Shown here: piece by piece, positions 3,230 through 36,436 of the stretch | How positions within the stretch are numbered: the first letter of the stretch is position 1 | Layout of the letters: the number at the start of each line of letters is the position of its first letter | Assembly (NCBI GenBank): GCA_028707005.1 | Contig: JAQTVB010000011.1 | Span: 1 to 36,555 of the forward strand | DNA from: Patescibacteria group bacterium | Lineage (GTDB): Bacteria; Patescibacteriota; Patescibacteriia; Patescibacteriales; GWC2-42-12 | Length of the DNA: 36,555 nucleotides | Direction of reading: 5' to 3' | The notes under the pieces: model-generated | Database searches by the model: none | The model's input: only the letters and a program-made list of their open reading frames with translations | What the model was told of the DNA's origin: nothing | Translations under genes and position numbers: made by a program

Positions 3230-3655
3230 TTATGGATTACCGTCAACTACGCCGCTCTCTCCTCCCGGCAAACTGCTAAACACAAAATAAGTGATTGAAT
3301 AAGCCGCCACGATTATTATCAAGCCAATCACCGCTCTGGTTAAAGTATTTTTCGCCAAAGACACTTTTTCTTCATCGCCTCCGGCGGTCATCAAGCTGAA
3401 GCCGGCATAGATGATTAAAACGATAAAAATTATCCCCAATAAACCTAAAAAAGCGCTCACCGCGTATCTGATTATGTCGGGCAAACCGGTTGAGCCGGCG
3501 GTCGGAACTTCGCCCCAGGCTTTATTGCCCGCCGAGTCCATTTGATTATACAAGTCGTTTTTAGTGCCGGCTTGGCCAGGCGATAAAAAAAATAAAAAAC
3601 TAAAAACAATGATTAATAAACCGCTTACCGTGAATTTAAAATATTTTGTAAACAT
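3230..3655 (-). CDS. T4SS pilin-like small membrane protein, copy 1
   Basis: Member of the CPR family resembling VirB2/TrbC pilins (T4SS_pilin). The members of this array share a signal peptide, a variable exported stretch, a first membrane helix, a short loop with G(D/N)E(E/D)KV..AK and a second membrane helix. Here there are 141 residues, a signal peptide ending near residue 29 (GQA), helices at about 66-86 and 106-126, and the loop AGGDEEKV at 91-98. It lacks the Trp of the usual (N/K)WM before the loop (FSLM instead), which sets it apart. It is last in the array and ends in a Gly-rich tail. VirB2-type pilins polymerise into conjugative pili. Here the role is inferred only. Confidence 0.75.
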   Translation of the reverse strand: MFTKYFKFTVSGLLIIVFSFLFFLSPGQAGTKNDLYNQMDSAGNKAWGEVPTAGSTGLPDIIRYAVSAFLGLLGIIFIVLIIYAGFSLMTAGGDEEKVSLAKNTLTRAVIGLIIIVAAYSITYFVFSSLPGGESGVVDGNP

Positions 3656-3689
3656 ATTTAAAGCTCCCCTGATTCAATGATTAAAATTT

Positions 3690-4097
3690 TTATTTCATGA
3701 TATTTGTTCCCGCGAGCAAACTGCCAAACACCCAATAGCTTATGGCGTAAGCGCCGATCGTCACGATCAAACCGATGACCGCGCGCTGAATCGTATCTTT
3801 GGCTTTAGTTACCTTTTCCTCATCGCCCTGGGCGACCATCCAGTTATAGCCGGCGTAAATTATATAAACTAAAAATAATACTCCCAAAAGTCCCAGGAAA
3901 GCCTGAATGATAATGCCTACAATACCGGCTAGATCGTTTGAACCGGTAGTGATATTCTGATAAGGCGCGTTAGACAAGCCGGCGCCGACCTTGTTTAAAC
4001 TGTCGCTGGCCGAACTGGCAGCTAAAACCAGAGATGGCAGAACCAACAGCGCCATCAAACAGACAAAAACTAAGACATGTTTTAATATTTTTTTCAT
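3690..4097 (-). CDS. T4SS pilin-like small membrane protein, copy 2
   Basis: A 135-residue paralogue from the ATG at 4097, which has GCAGGA just upstream. An in-frame GTG at 4115 is less likely. The signal peptide ends at VLAA (about 26). The first helix is followed by YAGYNWMVAQGDEEKV, then KAKDTIQRAVIGL and the second helix. It is closest to copies 3 and 4, sharing the YNWM.AQG loop. Its start overlaps no neighbour, and 34 bases separate it from copy 1. Confidence 0.75.
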   Translation of the reverse strand: MKKILKHVLVFVCLMALLVLPSLVLAASSASDSLNKVGAGLSNAPYQNITTGSNDLAGIVGIIIQAFLGLLGVLFLVYIIYAGYNWMVAQGDEEKVTKAKDTIQRAVIGLIVTIGAYAISYWVFGSLLAGTNIMK

Positions 4098-4124
4098 ACA
4101 TCCTGCGTTCTGCACTGTTTAATA

Positions 4125-4583
4125 TTAAGATTGATATACGTTCAGCTGCCCGCTGTCGCTCACGCTTTTCAAGGTTCCCGCTTCTATCCTGGACATAACA
4201 AAAACGCTGATCGCGTAAGCGGCAACTATAATGATCACGCCTACTATGGCCCGCTTAATCGTGTCTTTGGCTTTTTGCACCTTCTCCTCTTCCCCCTCGG
4301 CCGTAAGCCAATTATAACCGGCAAACAATATATAGGCTAGAAGCAAAACCCCGATCACGCTTAAGAATATATTAATCACGGTCTGAACCAAGGTGAGAGC
4401 GCTGTCGGCCGTGCTTGTTTCATAACCGGCGGTATTAGCCAAACCCTGCGTGCCGTTATTCATATTGGTTGTCGTGTTGCTGTTTAAAAACTTGCCAGCG
4501 CTTGCCGGACCGGCCATAAGCGCCATGGCCAGTAAAAAAGTCGCGGTGAAAAATTGAACGCCAATAAACAATCTCCTCGTCAT
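4125..4583 (-). CDS. T4SS pilin-like small membrane protein, copy 3
   Basis: A 152-residue paralogue. The signal peptide ends with PASAG (about 30), followed by an Asn/Thr-rich exported stretch (NSNTTTNMNNGTQ) longer than in its neighbours. Helices flank FAGYNWLTAEGEEEKV, with KAKDTIKRAIVGV following. The C-terminus extends by about 20 polar residues past the second helix. It begins 4 bases after copy 4's stop, which implies one transcript. Confidence 0.75.
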   Translation of the reverse strand: MTRRLFIGVQFFTATFLLAMALMAGPASAGKFLNSNTTTNMNNGTQGLANTAGYETSTADSALTLVQTVINIFLSVIGVLLLAYILFAGYNWLTAEGEEEKVQKAKDTIKRAIVGVIIIVAAYAISVFVMSRIEAGTLKSVSDSGQLNVYQS

Positions 4584-4587
4584 AATT

Positions 4588-4968
4588 TTATTTTAATAAC
4601 TTTTCAAAAAGAAACGCCCAAGAGGCATAAGCCCCGACTATAATAATTATGCCGATAATGGTTTGGATGATAATACTCTTGGCTTTGCCTACTTTTTCCT
4701 CATCGCCTTGCGCCGTCATCCAGTTATAGCCGGCAAAAAGCATCAGCCCCAAAAAAACTATGCCGATCAAACCCAGGGCGATGCCGACCACATTGCCAAC
4801 AATGCTTACCAGCGTGTCATTATTGGCCTGCGCGTAGGGTCCGGTGCTGGCCGCCACATTATCTAATACATTAAGCGGCGGATTATTGCCGGCCAAAACC
4901 AATTGCGGCAACAATAATAAAACGACTAAACAGACAGATAACATTATTTTTTTGCTAGTTTCTAACAT
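4588..4968 (-). CDS. T4SS pilin-like small membrane protein, copy 4
   Basis: At 126 residues this is the shortest paralogue. The signal peptide ends at VLAG (about 27). The loop is FAGYNWMTAQGDEEKV, then GKAKSIIIQTIIGI and a second helix ending almost at the C-terminus (FEKLLK). The variable exported part is correspondingly short. Confidence 0.75.
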   Translation of the reverse strand: MLETSKKIMLSVCLVVLLLLPQLVLAGNNPPLNVLDNVAASTGPYAQANNDTLVSIVGNVVGIALGLIGIVFLGLMLFAGYNWMTAQGDEEKVGKAKSIIIQTIIGIIIIVGAYASWAFLFEKLLK

Positions 4969-4994
4969 TTTATTGCATTTTTTGAATTAGCCGA

Positions 4995-5498
4995 TTATTT
5001 AAAAACTAGGCCGCCAATGGCTGCCACGACAAACCGAACAATCGCGTAAGCGGCTAAAACAACAACTATCCCGATAATAGCATTAATAAGAGTTTTTTTG
5101 GCTTTTTCCACCGTCTCTTCATTGCCCCCGGCCATCATCCAGCTATAACCGCCGTAAATCGCCAAAATCAAGAAAATCACGCCCATTAACTCAAGCACCA
5201 TGGTAATGACCTTGCTGATGATAGTGGGGAAAGAAGCCGAGGTATTATAGCCGGATCCCTGGACGGCCACGGCGTTAAGCGGCATATTGGCTCCGGTATC
5301 AAAGGCGTTGCCTATGCCAGTGGCTGATTGATTTGTCGCGCTACTACCGGCGGAAGTCCCTGCCGCGGCCGCGTCAGGATTAGGATAAGTATACGTGTCA
5401 TAAGCCAAAGCCGGAGTCATGAAAAACACCAGTAAAACAGGTAGAAAAAATAAAGAAAAAATCGGCTTAAATCCCTTTATTTTGCAACAAATTCCCAT
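4995..5498 (-). CDS. T4SS pilin-like small membrane protein, copy 5
   Basis: A 167-residue paralogue, the longest. The signal peptide ends near ALA (about 32), then comes a 60-residue Ala/Gly/Ser/Thr-rich exported segment. The helices flank YGGYSWMMAGGNEETV, then EKAKKTLINAIIGI. Its ATG lies inside the 3' end of copy 6 (22-base overlap in another frame), which suggests translational coupling. Confidence 0.75.
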   Translation of the reverse strand: MGICCKIKGFKPIFSLFFLPVLLVFFMTPALAYDTYTYPNPDAAAAGTSAGSSATNQSATGIGNAFDTGANMPLNAVAVQGSGYNTSASFPTIISKVITMVLELMGVIFLILAIYGGYSWMMAGGNEETVEKAKKTLINAIIGIVVVLAAYAIVRFVVAAIGGLVFK

Positions 5499-5860
5499 AA
5501 AGGTATGATTAATTTTGAAATCGCAAAAGCGGAAAACACAACTACAATAGCAATTAAAGTATTAATAATAATAGTCTTGGCTTTCTCTACCTGCTCCTCA
5601 TTGCCCCGCGCCATCATCCAGGTAAACCCGCCGTAAAGAATGATAATGGTCGCAATCACGCCCATCATCATGGGAGTTAAAAAACTGCCTAGTAATTTCA
5701 CTAAAAAATTCCCCGGATTAGTAACCGCCGCATAGCCCATGCCGGTCTCGCCGGCATTCTTTAAACCGTTGTCAAAACTAGAGCTGGCCAAAACCGATCC
5801 AGCTTGAATAACCAAGACTGAAAGAACTAGCAGTATGAAAAATATATATAAAATTCTCAT
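5477..5860 (-). CDS. T4SS pilin-like small membrane protein, copy 6
   Basis: A 127-residue paralogue. The signal peptide ends at VLAS (about 25). The loop is YGGFTWMMARGNEEQV, then EKAKTIIINTLIAI. It overlaps copy 5 at its 3' end. Confidence 0.75.
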   Translation of the reverse strand: MRILYIFFILLVLSVLVIQAGSVLASSSFDNGLKNAGETGMGYAAVTNPGNFLVKLLGSFLTPMMMGVIATIIILYGGFTWMMARGNEEQVEKAKTIIINTLIAIVVVFSAFAISKLIIPLWEFVAK

Positions 5861-5916
5861 AAACAGCGCTGTTATTCGCTCGCCCTTCCAGGAGTCTTCC
5901 CTGTTTATTAAATAAC

Positions 5917-6318
5917 CTACTTAGTCGCGTTAGTTATAATTTCAGCTATCACCTTGGTAATCGCGTAAGCGCCTAAAATTACTATCAAACCCAAAACCGC
6001 GCCGAAGATTGTTTCCTTGGCTGTTTTAATTTCTTCTTCATTGCCCTTGGCCAGCATCCAGCCGAAGCCGGCCCATAAAATCAAACAGAAAAAAACCACG
6101 CCCACAAAAGCTAAAATCGCGCCCACGACCTTGCCGATAATCATGGGCAGATCGGTTTGCGTGGATTTCACCCCGCCGGCGTTGGCCGTGGTATTTAAGT
6201 TGGTAAGCGCATTATTAATCCCGGTCGTATCAGCCAAAGCCGCCGGCGCCACCATGAAAAACGAAAAGGCCATTGCCAAGCAGGCAAATATTATGATGGA
6301 TTTTGAGGATAAAGGCAT
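5917..6318 (-). CDS. T4SS pilin-like small membrane protein, copy 7
   Basis: A 133-residue paralogue counted from the ATG at 6318 (MPLSSKSIII), which gives a proper signal peptide ending at ALAD (about 30). An upstream GTG at 6363 would put 15 charged residues ahead of it. The helices flank WAGFGWMLAKGNEEEI and KTAKETIFGAVLGL. Position 6 of the loop motif is Ile instead of Val. Confidence 0.75.
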   Translation of the reverse strand: MPLSSKSIIIFACLAMAFSFFMVAPAALADTTGINNALTNLNTTANAGGVKSTQTDLPMIIGKVVGAILAFVGVVFFCLILWAGFGWMLAKGNEEEIKTAKETIFGAVLGLIVILGAYAITKVIAEIITNATK

Positions 6319-6417
6319 AAATAAATTTTCAATAAAAAATTCTCTATCCGCTACTCTGCCCACGAACCCTTGCTCCTGCGCAGAGTGGCGGCTCCCAAAA
6401 TAATTGAGAGCGCGCTT

Positions 6418-6439
6418 TTTTTAATACCGGTATTAAAAA
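6418..6439. repeat. TTAATACCGGTATTAA palindrome, copy 1
   Basis: A perfect self-complementary 22-bp palindrome with no loop, just after the stop of pilin copy 8. The same core recurs at 7063-7078 after copy 9, so it was duplicated together with the gene. It could be a protein-binding site or a weak terminator. Confidence 0.7.
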
Positions 6440-6441
6440 TA

Positions 6442-6864
6442 CTAGGTAGTAGGAGGAATGCCCGTAGCAGTAAGCAGATTGTCTATAACAAACGTCGCGA
6501 TGCCCCAGGAGGCTAATATAATCACCAAACCGACGACTCCGGCAATAATGAGCTTCTTGGCTTCACCAACCTTGTCTTCGTTTCCTCCGCCAGTCATCCA
6601 TTTAAAGCCGCCCAATAAAATGATTACCACCGCGATGATGCCCAAAAAGCCCAAAATCACGTTAATAACCGAAGCGGCGATGGCGCGCGGATCTCTATTG
6701 CCCAAACCAATCGTATTTCCTATGCTGTTTACGTCCGCATTATTCGCGGCCTCTCCCCAGCCCGTGGTTACCGCCTGAACCGGCAAAGCCACTGCAAAAA
6801 CCGGCGTAAGCATAAACAAAGCCATGGCCAAGACCACGATTTTCTTCAACAATTTTTCTTTCAT
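6442..6864 (-). CDS. T4SS pilin-like small membrane protein, copy 8
   Basis: A 140-residue paralogue with an excellent ribosome-binding site (AGGAGGTG, 4 bases before ATG), rare in this window and a sign of strong expression. The signal peptide is followed by a short exported segment. From DPRAIAAS to the end it is almost identical to copy 9, and the DNA match extends into the upstream region and the downstream palindrome. The loop is GGFKWMTGGGNEDKV. The first two genes of the array are therefore a recent tandem duplication. Confidence 0.78.
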   Translation of the reverse strand: MKEKLLKKIVVLAMALFMLTPVFAVALPVQAVTTGWGEAANNADVNSIGNTIGLGNRDPRAIAASVINVILGFLGIIAVVIILLGGFKWMTGGGNEDKVGEAKKLIIAGVVGLVIILASWGIATFVIDNLLTATGIPPTT

Positions 6865-7027
6865 TTTTCACCTCCTGTCTGTACAAACACTAATCCGAAC
6901 GAATGGAAATTCATATAATTAATCCGGTTCATTATTAGTGTTATTAAATAATAAAGCATTAATGTCAAATTATAAAATTTCTCCGCTGCTCTGCGCGCAA
7001 ATCTAAATTTATATTCAGGGCAGCGGT

Positions 7028-7050
7028 CCCCCACCGCATTGCGGTGGGGG
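7028..7050. terminator. GC-rich hairpin downstream of pilin copy 9
   Basis: A perfect 10-bp stem CCCCCACCGC/GCGGTGGGGG with a 3-base loop. On the minus strand it lies just past the stop of copy 9 but lacks a following T run there, while on the plus strand CTTTTTC follows. It may pause transcription or stabilise the 3' end, so that copy 9 is expressed more than the distal genes. Confidence 0.5.
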
Positions 7051-7062
7051 ACAAGCTTTTTC

Positions 7063-7078
7063 TTAATACCGGTATTAA
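7063..7078. repeat. TTAATACCGGTATTAA palindrome, copy 2
   Basis: Exact second copy of the 16-base palindrome at 6421-6436, again a few bases after a pilin stop codon. Confidence 0.7.
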
Positions 7079-7084
7079 AAAATA

Positions 7085-7510
7085 TTAGGTAGCGGGGGTG
7101 CCCGTGGCAGTAAGCAGTCCGTTTATAACAAACGTCGCGATACCCCAGGAGGCTAATATAATCACTAAGCCGATAACTCCGGCGGTGATTAATTTCTTGG
7201 CTTCGCCAACCTTGTCTTCGTTTCCTCCGCCAGTCATCCATTTAAAGCCGCCCAATAAAATGATTACCACCGCGATGATGCCTAAAAAGCCCAAAATCAC
7301 GTTAATAACCGAAGCGGCGATGGCGCGCGGATCAGTACTGCCCAAACCAACGGCAGCCCCTACGGCATCATGGTTTCCTCCCGATGCGTCATCTCCCCAG
7401 CCAGTTACATCAGCCGCCAAAACTGGCAGCGTTGAAAAAACCAAGGCTGGCGTTAATACTAATAAAGCCATGGCCAATGCCACAATCTTTTTCATTAATT
7501 TTCCTTTCAT
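7085..7510 (-). CDS. T4SS pilin-like small membrane protein, copy 9 (first transcribed)
   Basis: A 141-residue paralogue with signal peptide about 1-33, exported stretch 34-60, first helix 66-86, loop GGFKWMTGGGNEDKV (87-101) and second helix 108-128. It has a strong ribosome-binding site (GGGAGGTG, 4 bases before ATG). Position and duplication with copy 8 suggest these two are the major subunits. No VirB4, VirB6 or other T4SS gene is in the window, so whether the array makes a pilus, a secretion channel or another surface structure is open. Confidence 0.78.
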   Translation of the reverse strand: MKGKLMKKIVALAMALLVLTPALVFSTLPVLAADVTGWGDDASGGNHDAVGAAVGLGSTDPRAIAASVINVILGFLGIIAVVIILLGGFKWMTGGGNEDKVGEAKKLITAGVIGLVIILASWGIATFVINGLLTATGTPAT

Positions 7511-29299: not shown

Positions 29300-29373
29300 G
29301 GGGTGGTAGCTCAATTGGTTAGAGCGCTGCCCTGTCACGGCAGAGGTCGCGGGTTCGAGTCCCGTCCATCCCG
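29300..29373 (+). tRNA. tRNA-Asp (anticodon GTC)
   Basis: The acceptor arms GGGGTGG and CCATCCC pair, with a G-T, and the discriminator is G as expected for Asp. The stem TGCC/GGCA encloses a loop with anticodon GTC. The T arm is CGCGGG-TTCGAGT-CCCG. CCA is not encoded. Confidence 0.96.
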
Positions 29374-29378
29374 CATAT

Positions 29379-29717: not shown

Positions 29718-29916
29718 TTGACAAGAATAATAAAGTATGCTATGATGTTATATCGAAGTTTGAATATTAAGGCAAGTCAAGAAAACAAAGGGGAAAATGC
29801 TATTGACAGAAAAGACAAAGTATGCTATTATGATAGTATCACGATAAAGATAGAAATAGGTCAAGGCAGTAATTAAGTAAATTACCCTTGACAAATAAAC
29901 GAAAGTATGCTATTAT
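29718..29916 (+). promoter_or_regulatory. Three tandem promoters with exact 85-base period
   Basis: TTGACA boxes at 29718, 29803 and 29888, each with a 17-base spacer ending in GTATGC and a -10 of TATGAT or TATTAT (29741, 29826 and 29911), so all three also have an extended -10 TG. All read rightward into non-coding sequence. A mirror-image GCATGCTATTAT on the minus strand (29644-29655) may be a fourth, divergent promoter. Confidence 0.85.
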
Positions 29917-29922
29917 ATAGAT

Positions 29923-30680
29923 ATCATTAACAGTTAGCTCTTTACACCAATACATTAAGACAATCTTTAGAGGAGAGAGTCTTCAATGCCCGAGAAGTTA
30001 TAAACGGGCCAATCGGTTCTATCCCACGTAAGGCGGGATAAGGATTCAAGCGGAGGTCTGCTTGAATGCCGCACGAACGATTGCTACTAATTGCTTTTAA
30101 GGCGATTGGGAGATCTCTTCTAAAGACGAACAGATATATGTCATCATATAGCTGGTCGGATAATTTAGAGGAGAACTCTTAGTCGCCTTTTTCGTTGGTG
30201 GAACGACGGAGAGGAGAAGGTGAAGCAAAATTTTAAATATATAATCATTTGCTTCAACTAATCCATGCTTGTCTCCGTCATTCTCTCAATGAGGAGAGAG
30301 CTCCCGCAAAGTGGGAGGCAAACGCTCTTTCAACTTTAAAAATATAAATTAAGGACGCGGAACTCGCTAAACGAGATTTTCAACAAATGGAAATCAACCG
30401 TTTAATAAGTTGCTCCTTAAGTCGCATAAGCCAGAAGAGGCTAAAGAATAGTTATGGCGACATGATTATTCCTAAGCCGCGCTAAGAGATTGCTCGGCGG
30501 CATCGCGGAATACATGCTTAGTTCGCGAAGCCGTCCTTCACTTAGCCTTCTAGCTAACCGTTCTTCATTCATAAGGAGATCGGCTGGGTCGCAAGATCTA
30601 ACCAATCTTAGATCCAGGAATTTCCTTATGACCCGCGGTCCGAAAAGCAAAAGGGAAACCAAGGGAGAAAACGATAAGGA
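29923..30680 (+). ncRNA. Candidate giant structured RNA (about 760 nt)
   Basis: No convincing gene exists here, yet consecutive local helices are dense. A 12-bp closing stem joins 29965-29976 with 30114-30125 (one G-T). Hairpins inside it are GCCCG/CGGGC (29988-30009), TATCCC/GGGATA (30020-30040) and ATTCAAGC/GCTTGAAT (30044-30067). Further helices lie at 30131-30154, GACGGAG/CTCCGTC with TGAAGCAAA/TTTGCTTCA inside (30205-30279), CTCCC/GGGAG (30301-30317), TTAAGGA/TCCTTAA (30349-30420), GTCGC/GCGAC (30421-30461), and TCATAAGGA/TCCTTATGA enclosing GATCTAA/TTAGATC (30569-30631). Three strong promoters feed it. In size and ornament it recalls GOLLD and ROOL RNAs, but I cannot assign it to either. 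The ends are approximate. Confidence 0.65.
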
Positions 30681-30686
30681 AGAACA

Positions 30687-30715
30687 TTGACAATTAAATA
30701 GATGAAAGGGATAAG
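30687..30715 (+). promoter_or_regulatory. Possible promoter of the Csx3-fusion gene
   Basis: TTGACA (30687-30692), a 17-base spacer and GATAAG (30710-30715). It would leave a 175-base leader containing the hairpin GTCATGC...GCATGAC near 30764-30803. Confidence 0.5.
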
Positions 30716-30896
30716 GCGGAACAAATTTCGCGAAAGCGATAACCGCAATGTTATTCCTCTTCGTCATGCTGAATTAACAGTTTTAAACTTAAGGTTTGGC
30801 ATGACAAGAGGGGTCGTATTAAATCTTGATCGGATGATCAAGGTGCGATTCCAGGCAATTCGCCGGCCGATGGCGAGAGACAAAGAAAGGATTCCA

Positions 30897-32096
30897 ATGA
30901 GAATCGTCTTTGGTGGACCAAAGCATTCCGGCAAGTCGGTACTGCTATGGTATCTTAAGAAACTCGTAGCGGCCGTAGGCGACTATATGCCGCTCCGATG
31001 CGCCCCTGACGGTGAGGGGGACTGGACTCAAGAACTCTATCTGACACAGCCCGATCTGGCGCTTGAAATCCGCCAGAAAGGACAGTTCTCGGAGGAGTTT
31101 GTGAGCTGGGCCGAAGGCGCGGTCAAAAACTGCGACTCTCGATTCGGGCTCATTGATGTCGGCGGAATCCCTTCTGCCGAAAACAAACGAATCTGCAAGC
31201 ATGCGGATGCTTTGGTCATCGTGATCTCCGACCAGTACGGTCAGGAGACGCACGAACTTTGGGTTCAATTTGCCAAGGAATTGGGATTGAAAGTCCTTGG
31301 TACGGTACACTCCACCCTTAACTCTGTTGAGGAGTGGAGTAAGACAAATTCTGACAGCAAGTTTGAAGGCCTTGCTGTTGGGTTGGACAGAAAAACCTTC
31401 AAGGGTTCCATAACAGTGGAAACTCTCGCAAAATTCCTGACAGAAAAAACAAAAACAGAAAAGAAAGAAAAACAGATGAACACAATCACAATCGCGCAAA
31501 TCGCCAGTATGATCGGAAAACAGCCGGGGCCAATTAGCTTGCCTGGTGGCAAGACGATTACCGGTCTGGATTGGAAGCCGGAAGAGCTTCCCATGGTCGA
31601 AGCGGCTCTCAAGCCGTTCTCGGCAATGGGGACTCCCTGGTTCGTGGATGGTGCAGGCCCGCAGTGGCTCATCGCGTGCATCACGCACGCTTTGCATCCC
31701 TGCTCGGTGGCGCTCGCCGACTCCAAGGTGGAGGGCGGGCAGGTGCAAATCGGCGAGCGAAAGCTCCCCGAAGGCACTGGTAAGGGTGACCTAACCTTCT
31801 CCGTTGAGGAGAAGGAGGCGGGGGCGATAGTCCGGTACCAATCGGCGAACCCGATTGATTTTCGGAAGCTCTCGGAGCTCGTCCCACCGGCGACTACGCA
31901 GGGCAAGTCAGTTTTTCTGAACGGACGAACGGCGACCTGGGGTGTGGTAGAGATTGCCGCGTGCTACCAGCATGTGGTGCCTGCGGTCTTCGTTGGCCAG
32001 CCCATGGGAGCGGCGGGTTACTGCTATGTCTGCGCCATTACCCACTCGCCCGACATCAAAGTTGGGTCCGTGGTGAAAGAGGCAGACCTGAAGTAG
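30897..32096 (+). CDS. csx3: P-loop ATPase fused to two Csx3-like domains
   Basis: A 399-residue protein from the ATG at 30897, which has AAAGGA 5 bases upstream (an earlier in-frame start would add 65 atypical residues). N-terminal domain (1-180): P-loop GGPKHSGKS (6-14), RCAPDGEGDW and a Walker-B-like LIDVGG, as in the ATPase fused to Csx3 in some cyanobacteria. After a Lys/Glu linker come two Csx3-type domains. The first (about 210-285) keeps DGAGPQW, ITHALHP and ALAD. The second (about 298-395) has GKSVFLNGRTATW and AITHSPDIKVGSVV but lacks the acidic DPR-type segment. Csx3/Crn3 degrades cyclic tetra-adenylate made by type III CRISPR systems. No cas gene or array is visible here, so the ligand is unknown. 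Confidence 0.8.
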   Translation: MRIVFGGPKHSGKSVLLWYLKKLVAAVGDYMPLRCAPDGEGDWTQELYLTQPDLALEIRQKGQFSEEFVSWAEGAVKNCDSRFGLIDVGGIPSAENKRICKHADALVIVISDQYGQETHELWVQFAKELGLKVLGTVHSTLNSVEEWSKTNSDSKFEGLAVGLDRKTFKGSITVETLAKFLTEKTKTEKKEKQMNTITIAQIASMIGKQPGPISLPGGKTITGLDWKPEELPMVEAALKPFSAMGTPWFVDGAGPQWLIACITHALHPCSVALADSKVEGGQVQIGERKLPEGTGKGDLTFSVEEKEAGAIVRYQSANPIDFRKLSELVPPATTQGKSVFLNGRTATWGVVEIAACYQHVVPAVFVGQPMGAAGYCYVCAITHSPDIKVGSVVKEADLK

Positions 32097-32514
32097 TCTC
32101 CCGGCCGAAAAACACCAGACGAAAGTTTGGTTGGGAGAAAATCCGCTCCTGTCAAAAAAGGTAAAATGGCTTTTTGTGTTAAGCCAGCTTGCAAGAGCTT
32201 AATTTGAACACTCCTTGATTGGTGGAGGTTAATCAGTCGGGTTAGCAGGAATGGTTTCCTGCCGTTGCTAAAGCGAAAGCCGAAGCAAAAGGAGAATACG
32301 TCAATTTCTCCTACTTCTTGAGCTTGTGATTTTATAATCATCGGCTCATTGGTAGTCTTGGCCATAGCGGTTTGTTTCTGATAATCCGGGAGCGGACTGC
32401 TATGACTAAGATAATTAAAAGTTTTGTAAGGCGTTTTTTAAACGCCTTGTCGGAATACTATAATAGCATCCCGACACTTGAGGATCTCTGGTTGGATTGG
32501 GGTCCTTAGAATTT
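32097..32514 (+). ncRNA. Structured non-coding space after the Csx3 fusion
   Basis: The 418 bases hold a series of hairpins and no supported gene: CTCCC/GGGAG (about 32099-32142) around CCAGAC-GAAA-GTTTGG (GNRA-type loop, one G-T), TGGCTT/AAGCCA near 32167-32186, and GCAGGAA/TTTCCTGC near 32243. Beyond two-hairpin motif A lie a 12-bp stem CATAGCGGTTTG/CGGACTGCTATG near 32363-32404 with three G-T pairs, and AAGGCGTTT/AAACGCCTT near 32428-32448. The wobble pairs favour plus-strand RNA. TATAAT at about 32459 may start the next gene's transcript. Confidence 0.55.
32291..32348 (+). repeat. Two-hairpin RNA motif, copy A
   Basis: Hairpin I is GGAGAA/TTCTCC (32291-32311), the linker is TACTTC, and hairpin II begins TTGAGCTTGTGATT and closes with AATCATCGGCTCA (32318-32348). 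See copies B, C and D. Confidence 0.8.
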
Positions 32515-32999: not shown

Positions 33000-33076
33000 G
33001 GAGGAACAGGTGTGCGGTAACGCCTATCTGCTCCTCCCCATTTTTGAGTTCGTAAGATTTATTCTTGCGGATTCAA
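33000..33076 (+). repeat. Two-hairpin RNA motif, copy B
   Basis: Hairpin I is GGAGGA/TCCTCC with an inner GCG-GTAA-CGC stem (33000-33037), the linker is CCATTT, and hairpin II begins TTGAGTTCGTAAGA and closes with TCTTGCGGATTCAA (33044-33076), fully paired with three G-T or T-G pairs. Confidence 0.85.
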
Positions 33077-33084
33077 AGAGTGGG

Positions 33085-33138
33085 GTGTTCATGCAATTTG
33101 TTGCTAACTATAAGGTTGGCAATAGGTTGCATGAACAC
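33085..33138 (+). promoter_or_regulatory. Hairpin hiding the start codon of the next gene
   Basis: GTGTTCATGCAA (33085-33096) pairs perfectly with TTGCATGAACAC (33127-33138), which contains the ATG at 33131. The inner stem TTGCTAACT/AGGTTGGCAA (33101-33122) lengthens it. In this fold translation would be blocked. Confidence 0.7.
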
Positions 33139-34456
33139 TACTACAAAATTGACCTTTGGGTCCGGTCGCTTCGGTTCGACCGTTACTAATAATCGAAACG
33201 AGATTGTAGTTGGACGATTCAATCGTCCAACGAAGCTCGTTGACTCCCGGAAGGATGTATTATTGTGCCTGCCGGAGTCGAACAACGCGTGGGATAAGGG
33301 TTATCCTACGCACCAAGAGAGCTGGTTGGCTCTTGCGTTCGTAATCGCTTGCCATAGCAAGCATCACGATCAGAACGGTTTGGCAATCCGGAAAGTGGCT
33401 TACCATTTCCGTATTCCGGATGTGCAGTGGCCGGTGTTGGCTGCGAAAGCGGTCGAGTTTGCCAGCGAGTTCCGCCAGAGATTGGCAGAACCCGGACTTT
33501 CGAGCCGCAAGGCTTTCAAGTCTGCCACTCGCGCTTTGCAGGATTGTTTGCTCTACGCGGTCACACGGGAGTTCCCGGCTGACCAGGATGTATTTCTGGC
33601 CGCTTCTCCGATAAATCCGCTCATCGAGAGGGCAAATCGGGGACGAGCCGGAGAGCTTTCGCACGCCGAAGGGCTGGAGCTTGCGAACGAGATCGACCAC
33701 GAGGTCGAGAAACTCGTTGTGAGTTTCGGCGGGATTGAAAAGTGCCGTAAGGCACTAGACTGTCTCAAAGAGTATTACCGACCGGATGGTCGGGTGATAC
33801 TTCTTCCCGAAAGTATTACCCTCGAACAGGGTGCCGAACTGGTGTCATTTGACATCATCCTCGGTACACCAGACGCTCATGACATGGATGTTGTGAGTGT
33901 GGCAGAGGGAACTAAAGAACCCCGATTGGTTCAACTCAGGGACGAAATTTCCGGTCAGCGTATGGATATCATCCAAGTTTCACCGGAACTCGGTCCAAAG
34001 GATGAACTTATTGGTGGTCATCGGCCGTTTCAGTCAGTAGCAGAGATGCTGCTGGCTAATGGCCGCGCAATTTCGACCGAAGGTAAGGTGCTTTTCGCCC
34101 GTCTTCAGGGGCAGGTTAATCCTGCCGAGTTGGCCAAAAAATACCGGAAGGTAGCGAAGGAGTTTTTCTCCAACGCTTCTGATCGGAAAAGCTGGGTCAG
34201 TCGGCGAGCGGCCGGTACTTCGGTGCCGCAGGTCAAAAAGGTGCTCCCGTTATATAGGATCGCCTGCGACCTGCTACCCCGTGCTTCTTTCATGGAGCAA
34301 AGGGGAGAGTTCACTGGAGGTATTTCACCCGAGAAGTTGGCTGATGAAGCCAGTCTTGGTGATACCTTTCGAAAAATCCGTAATGTTCTTGATCGCCAGG
34401 ACGCAACGGAACAAGAGTTGGAGACGATCGCCGCGGAAATCGAGTGCAAACTCTAG
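33131..34456 (+). CDS. Large protein of unknown function in the accessory module
   Basis: A 441-residue, apparently soluble protein that I do not recognise. I chose ATG 33131 (MNTTTKLTFGSGRF), since the preceding in-frame codons run through hairpins. Its beginning is beta-rich (VTNNRNEIVVGRFNRPTKLV), the middle (about 60-200) is helical with ALAFVIACHSKHHDQNG, and a segment KEYYRPDGRVILLPESITLE precedes another mixed region. The C-terminal third is strongly charged and helical. There is no Walker, nuclease or membrane signature. Its conserved place between the candidate effector and the AAA+ ATPase suggests a structural or adaptor role. The start codon is embedded in a 12-bp hairpin, and only a weak AGG precedes it. 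Confidence 0.7.
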   Translation: MNTTTKLTFGSGRFGSTVTNNRNEIVVGRFNRPTKLVDSRKDVLLCLPESNNAWDKGYPTHQESWLALAFVIACHSKHHDQNGLAIRKVAYHFRIPDVQWPVLAAKAVEFASEFRQRLAEPGLSSRKAFKSATRALQDCLLYAVTREFPADQDVFLAASPINPLIERANRGRAGELSHAEGLELANEIDHEVEKLVVSFGGIEKCRKALDCLKEYYRPDGRVILLPESITLEQGAELVSFDIILGTPDAHDMDVVSVAEGTKEPRLVQLRDEISGQRMDIIQVSPELGPKDELIGGHRPFQSVAEMLLANGRAISTEGKVLFARLQGQVNPAELAKKYRKVAKEFFSNASDRKSWVSRRAAGTSVPQVKKVLPLYRIACDLLPRASFMEQRGEFTGGISPEKLADEASLGDTFRKIRNVLDRQDATEQELETIAAEIECKL

Positions 34457-34503
34457 TTTGCGGCAATGGTTGTGTGTTCCTAAAAAAAACACTCATGAGT
34501 TTT

Positions 34504-34570
34504 GGAGATGTACTTATGGTTTTAAACATCTCCGCTTTCTTCAGTTCGTAACATTAATTTGCGGATTGAA
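34504..34570 (+). repeat. Two-hairpin RNA motif, copy C
   Basis: Hairpin I is GGAGATGT/ACATCTCC (34504-34533), the linker is GCTTTC, and hairpin II begins TTCAGTTCGTAA and closes with TTTGCGGATTGAA (34540-34570). The third pair of stem II is C-G here instead of G-C in copy B, a compensatory change. Confidence 0.85.
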
Positions 34571-34587
34571 TAGAGAAAGGATTTTGA

Positions 34588-34839
34588 ATGGATAGATCTT
34601 TTAAAGAACTTCGGCTCCGAGCGGTATTTGTTCTTCGGCTTTCCGACGAAGTCCGCAAGGAGTTCATCGGAATCGCCAGGGAAAAATCGCCGTCGGCAGG
34701 TTTTAATCTCGCTCTGATTGCCGCGCAAGTGCACGGCATAGTAGGCATGGAGGCGATCGCCGTGGCCAAAGCCACGAGGTGGCTGGCTATGATTCGTCGT
34801 GATCATGGCGTGCAGGTATTTGAACAAGTAGTCGCGTAA
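34588..34839 (+). CDS. Small helical protein of unknown function
   Basis: 83 residues, not recognised. It starts at an ATG preceded by AAAGGA 6 bases upstream. The sequence (FVLRLSDEVRKEFIGIAREK, then AGFNLALIAAQVHGIVGMEA) is mostly helical with a hydrophobic middle but no clear membrane span. It lies just after motif C and before another small gene, with both followed by motif D and the AAA+ gene. Confidence 0.6.
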   Translation: MDRSFKELRLRAVFVLRLSDEVRKEFIGIAREKSPSAGFNLALIAAQVHGIVGMEAIAVAKATRWLAMIRRDHGVQVFEQVVA

Positions 34840-35062: not shown

Positions 35063-35080
35063 TCTTTACAACATGGCTCC

Positions 35081-35151
35081 GGGGAATGCCAAGAAATTCT
35101 CCACTTTATTGAGTTCGCGATTATCCGCTTTGCGGAATAATCATTGGCTCA
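35081..35151 (+). repeat. Two-hairpin RNA motif, copy D
   Basis: Hairpin I is GGGGAAT/ATTCTCC (35081-35102), the linker is ACTTTA, and hairpin II begins TTGAGTTCGCGATTATCCGC and closes with GCGGAATAATC...CTCA (35109-35151). Its outer part (TGAG, a T-G/T-G/C-T/G-T internal run, GATT/AATC) mirrors copy A. Confidence 0.85.
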
Positions 35152-35224
35152 TAGAGTATCTCACTCTATTAAAAGCGAGGCGGCATTAAATAGGTGGCCG
35201 GAAAATACCAGTGGAGGAATCGTC

Positions 35225-36436
35225 ATGGCAAATGACATCCTTGATTTAGGTGTGCAGATCGCGCCGAAAGCGTCGGCTTTGATGGCGGACGTGGCGGTGC
35301 GGAACATTGGTCGCGAGACGATCGTGCGGGCAACCATGCTCGCGCTTATCTCCGGCCGACCGGCTTTTTTCCTGGGTTCGCCCGGGATCAACAAGACCGG
35401 GACGGTGCAAGACATCGCCAAGCGGATTGACGGGGCTTTGTTTTACGATGCCCTGATGCCTACCATTGTTTCGGTTGAACAACTTATCGTGGAGAGTACC
35501 TCCATTGAAGAGCAGTCATCCGAAAATGGTGGCAAGTCGATTCGCACCAGCGATACACTTGGCCGAGCTGCCAAAGCACACATTCTGTTTGCCGATGAGA
35601 TTTGGAAAGCGGAGCCTCGAGTTCTGCAAACCGTTCTCGACTTGGCAAAAGGCGATGGTGTGCGGCACGAGGGGCGGATGGTGAAAACCCCGTTGCTCGC
35701 GTTTGTGGCGGCTTCAAATGAGCTTCCGGATTCGGAAGGAAACCTCCAAGCGATGTGGTCTCGAATGACCATTCGCGCCGAGGTGAAATCCTTGGACCGC
35801 GCGGGAAAGAAAAATCTCGTGGCGGCCAGGCTCAATCGGGCGCAAGCCGGTAAATCGGCAGCGCCAACCGCAACCCTGACGCTCGCTGAAGTGGAAACGC
35901 TTCGCGAAGTTCGTCCGTTCGTGGAAGTTAGCGATGAGATCGTCGAGATTACGCTCGACCTCTATCAGCAACTTCTCGATGGAGACAATGCGGGGTTTGC
36001 GTGGTTGTGGGCCGATGATCGCAGGTTCGGACGAGTCTTTGATGTTTTGCAGGCCAACGCTCTTCTTGACGGGAGAGTGAGGGTTAGCAAGCAGGACCTT
36101 CGAACGCTGGAGTATTTGCTTTGGGATACGCCCGAGCAGATCGCTACAGTGAAGGCGAAAATCGCGCCGCTCTGCCGGACGCCTTTGTCGGATGCGCAGG
36201 AAGTGTTTGACACTCTGTTTGCGCCGGCGGGTGTGGTGGCGGAAGTGTTGGCTGGTGACCGCAACAAAATCGTGGCGGCTATCACCCAATTCGAAGAGAC
36301 CGAGAAAGAACTCGGTCGTCTCGCTAGCGAGGCGAGTCAAGACGAAAAAACCAAGATTGCCGACCTGCTCGCTAAGGTTGGTGAAGAGAAACAGAACGCC
36401 GTTGCCAAGATTCTTGGCGCCAAGCGTTCAAAGTAG
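35225..36436 (+). CDS. RavA/MoxR-family AAA+ ATPase
   Basis: A 403-residue ATPase. ATG 35225 is preceded by GGAGG at a good distance (an earlier in-frame start is inside motif D). Motifs: Walker A GSPGINKT (as in RavA GPPGIAKS, third Gly absent), Walker B HILFADEIWKA, sensor 1 LAFVAASNELP and QAMWSRMTIRAEVKSL, matching the RavA pattern closely. The C-terminal third is helical and charged (TEKELGRLASEASQDEKTK). MoxR ATPases act with VWA-domain partners to load or remodel protein complexes. The next gene, cut by the window end, is a candidate partner. Confidence 0.85.
   Translation: MANDILDLGVQIAPKASALMADVAVRNIGRETIVRATMLALISGRPAFFLGSPGINKTGTVQDIAKRIDGALFYDALMPTIVSVEQLIVESTSIEEQSSENGGKSIRTSDTLGRAAKAHILFADEIWKAEPRVLQTVLDLAKGDGVRHEGRMVKTPLLAFVAASNELPDSEGNLQAMWSRMTIRAEVKSLDRAGKKNLVAARLNRAQAGKSAAPTATLTLAEVETLREVRPFVEVSDEIVEITLDLYQQLLDGDNAGFAWLWADDRRFGRVFDVLQANALLDGRVRVSKQDLRTLEYLLWDTPEQIATVKAKIAPLCRTPLSDAQEVFDTLFAPAGVVAEVLAGDRNKIVAAITQFEETEKELGRLASEASQDEKTKIADLLAKVGEEKQNAVAKILGAKRSK

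Follow-up and report, generated by a model that had tools for sequence, protein, structure and literature searches.

The stretch at 29923-30680 of the window (the whole contig, 36555 nt, from the 1.08-Mb genome of a tiny uncultured bacterium) is most of an approximately 970-nt 5' leader of a Patescibacteria AAA-Csx3/MoxR operon, and its 5' domain D1 (29983-30193, + strand), the best-conserved module, is a new, undescribed RNA family. The best explanation, to which we give a probability of about two in three, is that D1 serves this leader as a riboswitch-like transcription attenuator. The analysis shows structure, covariation, an alternative pairing, a place at the head of the transcript and recurrence before HD_4 genes; for this reading we infer transcription, termination, switching, the polarity of the switch and a ligand.

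The operon and its leader

The genes 3' of the leader encode, in order, an AAA-Csx3 fusion, a protein of 159-165 aa, a protein of 440-463 aa, two small proteins and a MoxR-type AAA ATPase (35225-36436, + strand). The product of the fusion gene (30897-32096, + strand) matches Csx3 in Pfam (E = 1.7e-7) and AAA-Csx3 in PADLOC (E = 8.5e-37). The true start of this gene is 30897 and not 30702: homologous proteins begin at an ATG matching 30897, and the frame from 30702 is too long. A SpoU methylase gene is situated upstream of the leader. Csx3 (Crn3) is described as a ring nuclease that degrades cyclic tetra-adenylate (cA4) (PMC7371418), and AAA-Csx3 or Csx3-kinase fusions and MoxR-vWA conflict systems have been described with the protein content seen in the window operon (PMC7371418, PMC7159879). 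No mention of a structured RNA leader such as that of the window operon was found in the searched passages of these two papers. An alignment of the window P-loop domain with those of three relatives, used as a search query, retrieved homologues at 80 loci in genomes with named records, many of them Patescibacteria. An AAA-Csx3 relative (L105) is encoded on a 167-kb IMG/VR contig classed as viral. Elsewhere in the window, on the minus strand at 3230-7510, there is a tandem array of about eight related membrane proteins of 126-167 aa, which resemble pilin subunits and share the motif GDEEKV..KA..TI...AI.

An earlier note on this DNA had described about 760 nt with many helices and no credible reading frame, and both descriptions are borne out. 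Each + frame of 29923-30896 contains 13-24 stops, the longest open stretch is 74 codons, and the best homologues are separated by indels that would break a codon frame (171 nt at 29956-30126 against 157 nt in the L078 counterpart), their lengths not being divisible by three. A protein-coding reading of the leader is rejected by these stops and indels. The minimum free energy of the + strand of 29923-30680 (758 nt) is -274.9 kcal/mol, against -196 +/- 7 for shuffled sequences (z = -11); for the minus strand, z = -9. The corresponding values for 29923-30896 are -11.7 (+) and -6.8 (-). When 18 leaders (the window included), with limits set by eye, were folded, the sense z was the stronger in 17, and it was below -5 in all except L040 and L051. 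The boundary at 30680 drawn in the earlier note is to be moved, as the structured region continues up to the csx3 start codon at 30897.

Similar leaders are carried by related Patescibacteria operons. The nucleotide match of the window is 70-77% at 29947-30126 (to L078, L062 and L046), 80-82% at 30685-30819 (to L062, L078 and L089) and 90% at 30808-30877 (to L040). L062 keeps D1 and the 3' domain D3 with little between them, most of the domain D2 being missing. Because the pieces are conserved separately, and are absent or differently combined between loci, the leader is modular and not one fixed RNA. No terminator was found between the leader end and csx3.

These results bear on the proposal that the leader as a whole forms a single autonomous ornate RNA like GOLLD or ROOL, which might multimerise. 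GOLLD and ROOL are encoded by phages or prophages, where tRNA islands are often close by, and the RNAs assemble into cages (PMC12286853). Like them, the leader is hundreds of nucleotides long and rich in helices, encodes no protein and has strong promoters; a tRNA-Asp, which the earlier note had placed about 600 bases upstream, is found at 29300-29374, about 550 bases away. However, a search of 4227 Rfam families, in gathering and permissive modes, gave no meaningful match for 29923-30680 to any family, GOLLD and ROOL included; the matches to miRNA, snoRNA and ylbH families were far below the cut-off and chance-like, and a known Rfam family is rejected for the leader. The window gene annotation contains no recognised phage gene around the leader, and the context is a bacterial contig with a single tRNA-Asp and not a tRNA array. 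The shuffling and loss of modules across loci (as in L062) and the missing terminator before csx3 also argue against an autonomous RNA. A 12-bp long-range stem supposed to close the RNA can pair in the window sequence, but neither L078 nor L062 conserves the pairing partners, which leaves this closing stem unsupported. What stands of the idea of a giant ornate RNA is therefore a large, conserved, covarying RNA without protein; a GOLLD/ROOL relative is very improbable, given the lack of an Rfam match and the position as an operon leader.

Ahead of the leader lie three tandem promoters, as the same note had reported, and their spacing is exactly 85 bp: TTGACA-17-TATGAT at 29718-29746, TTGACA-17-TATTAT at 29803-29831 and a third, nearest to the RNA, at 29888-29916. 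All are on the + strand, have an extended -10 with TG and match the consensus at 11 of 12 positions. The -10 block of the third promoter, AAAGTATGCTATTAT, also heads unrelated genes in relatives. The matches in G091 and G027, which share only the promoter and the bases after it, were rejected as RNA homologues, as was that in G070, which sits in an unrelated gene. The head of the leader contains a hairpin, AAGAC..GTCTT (29957-29983, + strand), that is nearly identical in L078 and L062. Two stretches on the + strand are tentatively boxA-like, AGCTCTTTACACCAATACA (29936-29954) by sequence and the conserved block AACATTGACAATTAAATAG (30683-30701) by leader comparison. By eye a boxA antitermination site is attractive, and it may tentatively be proposed; the comparison extended to the rRNA leaders of relatives, that of the window genome being lost at a contig end. 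The boxA consensus score against shuffles was not convincing, with p < 0.05 in only two of 14 upstream stretches and p = 0.96 for the copy at 29936-29954. In the window's own genome (L111, C24), an apparent LAGLIDADG-type homing-endonuclease frame interrupts the rRNA region, and the 16S gene is cut by the contig end.

Covariation and distribution of D1

D1 comprises a P1 hairpin, P2-P5, a loop-to-arm pseudoknot and a terminator-like stem with a run of U. An alignment of four sequences had compensatory changes at 15 of its 48 pairs. A covariance model (R1) detected three further places, one of them weak, in 380 genomes of the phylum, and a second model (R2), built with two places found by the first, revealed further members in a whole-genome scan, with scores of 59 to 115 bits and in two classes. 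By covariance model D1 is present at 13 loci, all with E below 1e-12; R1 and R2 score their own seeds by construction, and the independent R2 hits, outside the model, are L123, L124 and L127-L131. Matches below 40 bits (L132-L139, L122, L061) were left out of the membership.

In the alignment of the 13 members, which is fitted to the model and so favours the structure, 92.4% of 606 cells pair and 26 of 48 pairs are doubly changed; these are the helix-preserving substitutions in homologues that the earlier note had predicted for an RNA. None of 500 shuffles reached any of the observed measures, and pairing fell to 40-50% when the partners were slid by 1-3 columns. The P1 hairpin lies outside the model: with its strands placed by hand, 59 of 60 cells are paired in 12 members, with several pair types (L131 is without a clear P1). 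Coding frames or a lack of covariation had been set beforehand as grounds for refutation; the RNA is instead non-coding, conserved and covarying.

Among the AAA-Csx3 leaders the D1 models recovered D1 in the window, L078, L062 and L046 and gave only weak matches elsewhere, in L061/L113. Most of the leaders examined are thus without a recognisable D1, which counts against the attenuator reading. No Rfam match, and no riboswitch family, was detected at D1 in ten D1 loci. A full-text search found no paper on this RNA in the literature collection covered.

D1 as a putative attenuator

At its 3' end D1 has a terminator-like stem, GGCGATTGGGAGATCTCTTC ... GAGGAGAACTCTTAGTCGCC (30098-30192, + strand), with TTTTT behind it, and by sequence a stem and a run of U close the domain in all 13 members. 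The loop GAGGTCT (30053-30059, + strand) of an internal D1 hairpin can pair with AGATCTC (30111-30117) in the 5' arm of this stem. The complementarity between loop and arm is kept in 13 of 13 members, in nine of them as GAAATCT/AGATTTC. There are only two sequence types of the pseudoknot, in which one pair switches from G-C to A-U on both sides, and this single double change was probably inherited in two clades. The covariation support for the putative pseudoknot is thus modest, and its perfect conservation among the sequences is the stronger statement.

When the loop pairs with the arm the full terminator stem cannot form, and vice versa, and on this the reading of D1 as an attenuator is based. 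Of the features of a riboswitch-type attenuator, D1 has a core that is conserved and covaries within a 5' leader, an intrinsic terminator before a gene (predicted by sequence) and, with modest support, a mutually exclusive alternative structure. Transcription-attenuation riboswitches share with D1 the 5' leader position, the compact covarying core with conserved loops, the terminator-like stem with its U-run, the alternative pairing to the terminator arm and the recurrence before one enzyme type. They differ from it in that D1 matches nothing in Rfam 15, by sequence or by structure, and in the window is embedded in a larger leader at a long distance from the gene. The roughly 700 nt of further leader between D1 and csx3 in the window are more than simple attenuation would need and count against it.

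In the proposed mechanism, the tandem promoters would transcribe the leader (29923-30896), and D1 would form a compact core of several helices, with an apical loop able to capture the terminator-like stem by its 5' arm. If the core were stabilised by a ligand or factor, the loop would hold the arm and polymerase would read on; if not, the terminator would form and the operon would be off. The same switch would serve HD_4 hydrolase genes elsewhere.

In eight of ten cases, a stand-alone D1 is situated just upstream of an HD_4-type hydrolase gene, typically within about 100 nt of its start codon. A Pfam HD_4 gene directly follows D1 in L120 (G431), L121 (G498), L123, L127, L129 and L131; in L124 it is the next gene but one, with one small frame between, and in L125 the protein after D1 is HD-like by eye. 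No HD_4 gene was seen in the sequence available around D1 in L128 and L130. D1 thereby links two gene types, HD_4 and AAA-Csx3, which also keep company without it: HD_4 genes are found within or near the Patescibacteria AAA-Csx3 loci L031, L051, L068, L080 and L089, and in cyanobacterial AAA-Csx3 loci (L056, L065, L075, L077, L095, L099, L100, L102) an HD_4-type gene lies on the opposite strand at a distance of about 2-4 kb. Because D1 stands alone before HD_4 genes, it is better understood as regulating transcription in cis than as part of an autonomous ornate RNA.

Judged by eye, a -10-like element precedes most D1 members by no more than about 60 nt. With a promoter ahead and a U-run behind, D1 resembles a complete small-RNA gene, and its core sequence is very conserved; it could accordingly be a trans-acting RNA, about 200-250 nt long and equipped with a promoter and a terminator, from which transcription would reach the following genes only by read-through. 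Such an RNA would need neither the recurrence before one gene type (8/10) nor the closeness to the start codon, and the conserved pairing of the loop to the terminator also speaks against it, so that we regard this explanation as unlikely.

Returning to attenuation, the presence of the same putative switch before HD_4 genes suggests that D1 probably senses something on which nucleotide-handling enzymes act. HD_4 proteins have a SpoT-type HD fold and resemble SpoT-type hydrolases. Since Csx3/Crn3 degrades cA4, and in view of this resemblance, a nucleotide signal may be guessed as the ligand. The HD fold is also a possible functional link, and the only resemblance, to the ppGpp/PRPP (ykkC-type) riboswitches; no Rfam riboswitch family matches at D1. 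A more specific version, in which D1 is a riboswitch for a nucleotide second messenger such as an alarmone or cyclic oligoadenylate and co-regulates the signal-destroying HD_4 and AAA-Csx3 enzymes in Patescibacteria, the operon mRNA being also cut by self-cleaving ribozymes, is doubtful.

Structured RNA in the rest of the operon

Behind D1 a single-sequence fold of the window predicts linker hairpins (30200-30325, + strand). The second structured domain, D2 (30343-30660, + strand), is weakly conserved overall and contains a conserved hairpin, UAAGGA-GAUCGG-CUGG..(UAACC loop)..CCAG-GAAUU-UCCUUA (30571-30629, + strand), that is also present in L017 and twice in L046. D3 (30702-30896, + strand) makes up the 3' part of the leader, up to the csx3 start, and is both structured and conserved; pieces of it are 80-90% identical in L078, L062, L089 and L040. 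The L046 record is named Smithella sp. SCADC, yet its operon is of the Patescibacteria type and contains the D2 hairpin and the hammerhead twice each; this contig is probably mis-binned.

The intergenic regions of the window are highly structured as well (z = -11.1 for 32251-32500 and -8.8 for 33001-33250). One structured motif is present in four copies on the + strand, at 32290-32360, 33000-33098 (33000-33147 with a long hairpin), 34500-34590 and 35080-35165. It consists of GGAG..CTCC followed by a hairpin, TTGAGTTCG...CGGATTCAA, whose outer bases vary yet pair, and is also found in L078 and L046; it is possibly a processing site or a ribozyme of an unknown kind. The second copy includes a long, near-perfect hairpin (33079-33147), which is situated right before the start codon at 33134. 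The stretch 32211-32409 matches one upstream of the P-loop gene of L078.

Type III hammerheads (RF00008) were matched in the sister loci L017 (8381-8435, E = 2.8e-6), L046 (2616-2670, E = 3.3e-5) and L070 (12559-12613, E = 1.5e-4), all in sense orientation and below the Rfam gathering score, with intact cores. Further sense-strand cores are present at L040:8580, L045:11160, L046:532, L061:5683 and L078:19446. A strict core search of the AAA-Csx3 loci gave eight sense cores and no genuine antisense one, the lone minus-strand match (L113) being the L061 contig duplicated in the opposite orientation. Most of the hammerheads have a UGUGUA-like stem-I loop. A hammerhead-like stretch in L122 was dropped, as its stem II looked wrong. 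As in RAGATH-like gene contexts, the hammerheads are intergenic and on the sense strand, which suggests that the long mRNA may be cut in the sister operons that carry them. In the window, neither Rfam nor the core search detected a hammerhead (CUGAUGA...GAAA core, three helices) or another known ribozyme.

The sense-strand hammerheads of the sister operons and the structured intergenic regions of the window would fit a role of the leader and intergenic structures mainly in processing or protecting the polycistronic mRNA, or as substrates or decoys for the RNA enzymes of the operon, D1 being one such element; two relatives also have a gene whose product looks like a DEAH-type helicase. This role is quite improbable as the main one, as the searches detected no known ribozyme in the window itself and D1 is also present on its own before HD_4 genes where the operon is missing.

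How Patescibacteria regulate their genes has hardly been explored. The structured leaders and intergenic regions, together with the hammerheads of sister loci, depict an unusual protein operon, with shaped RNA making up much of the transcript between its genes. D1 would tie an undescribed RNA family to nucleotide hydrolases and to a Csx3-type, defence-like operon, and it would give a direct handle on the signal that the HD_4 and Csx3 enzymes answer.
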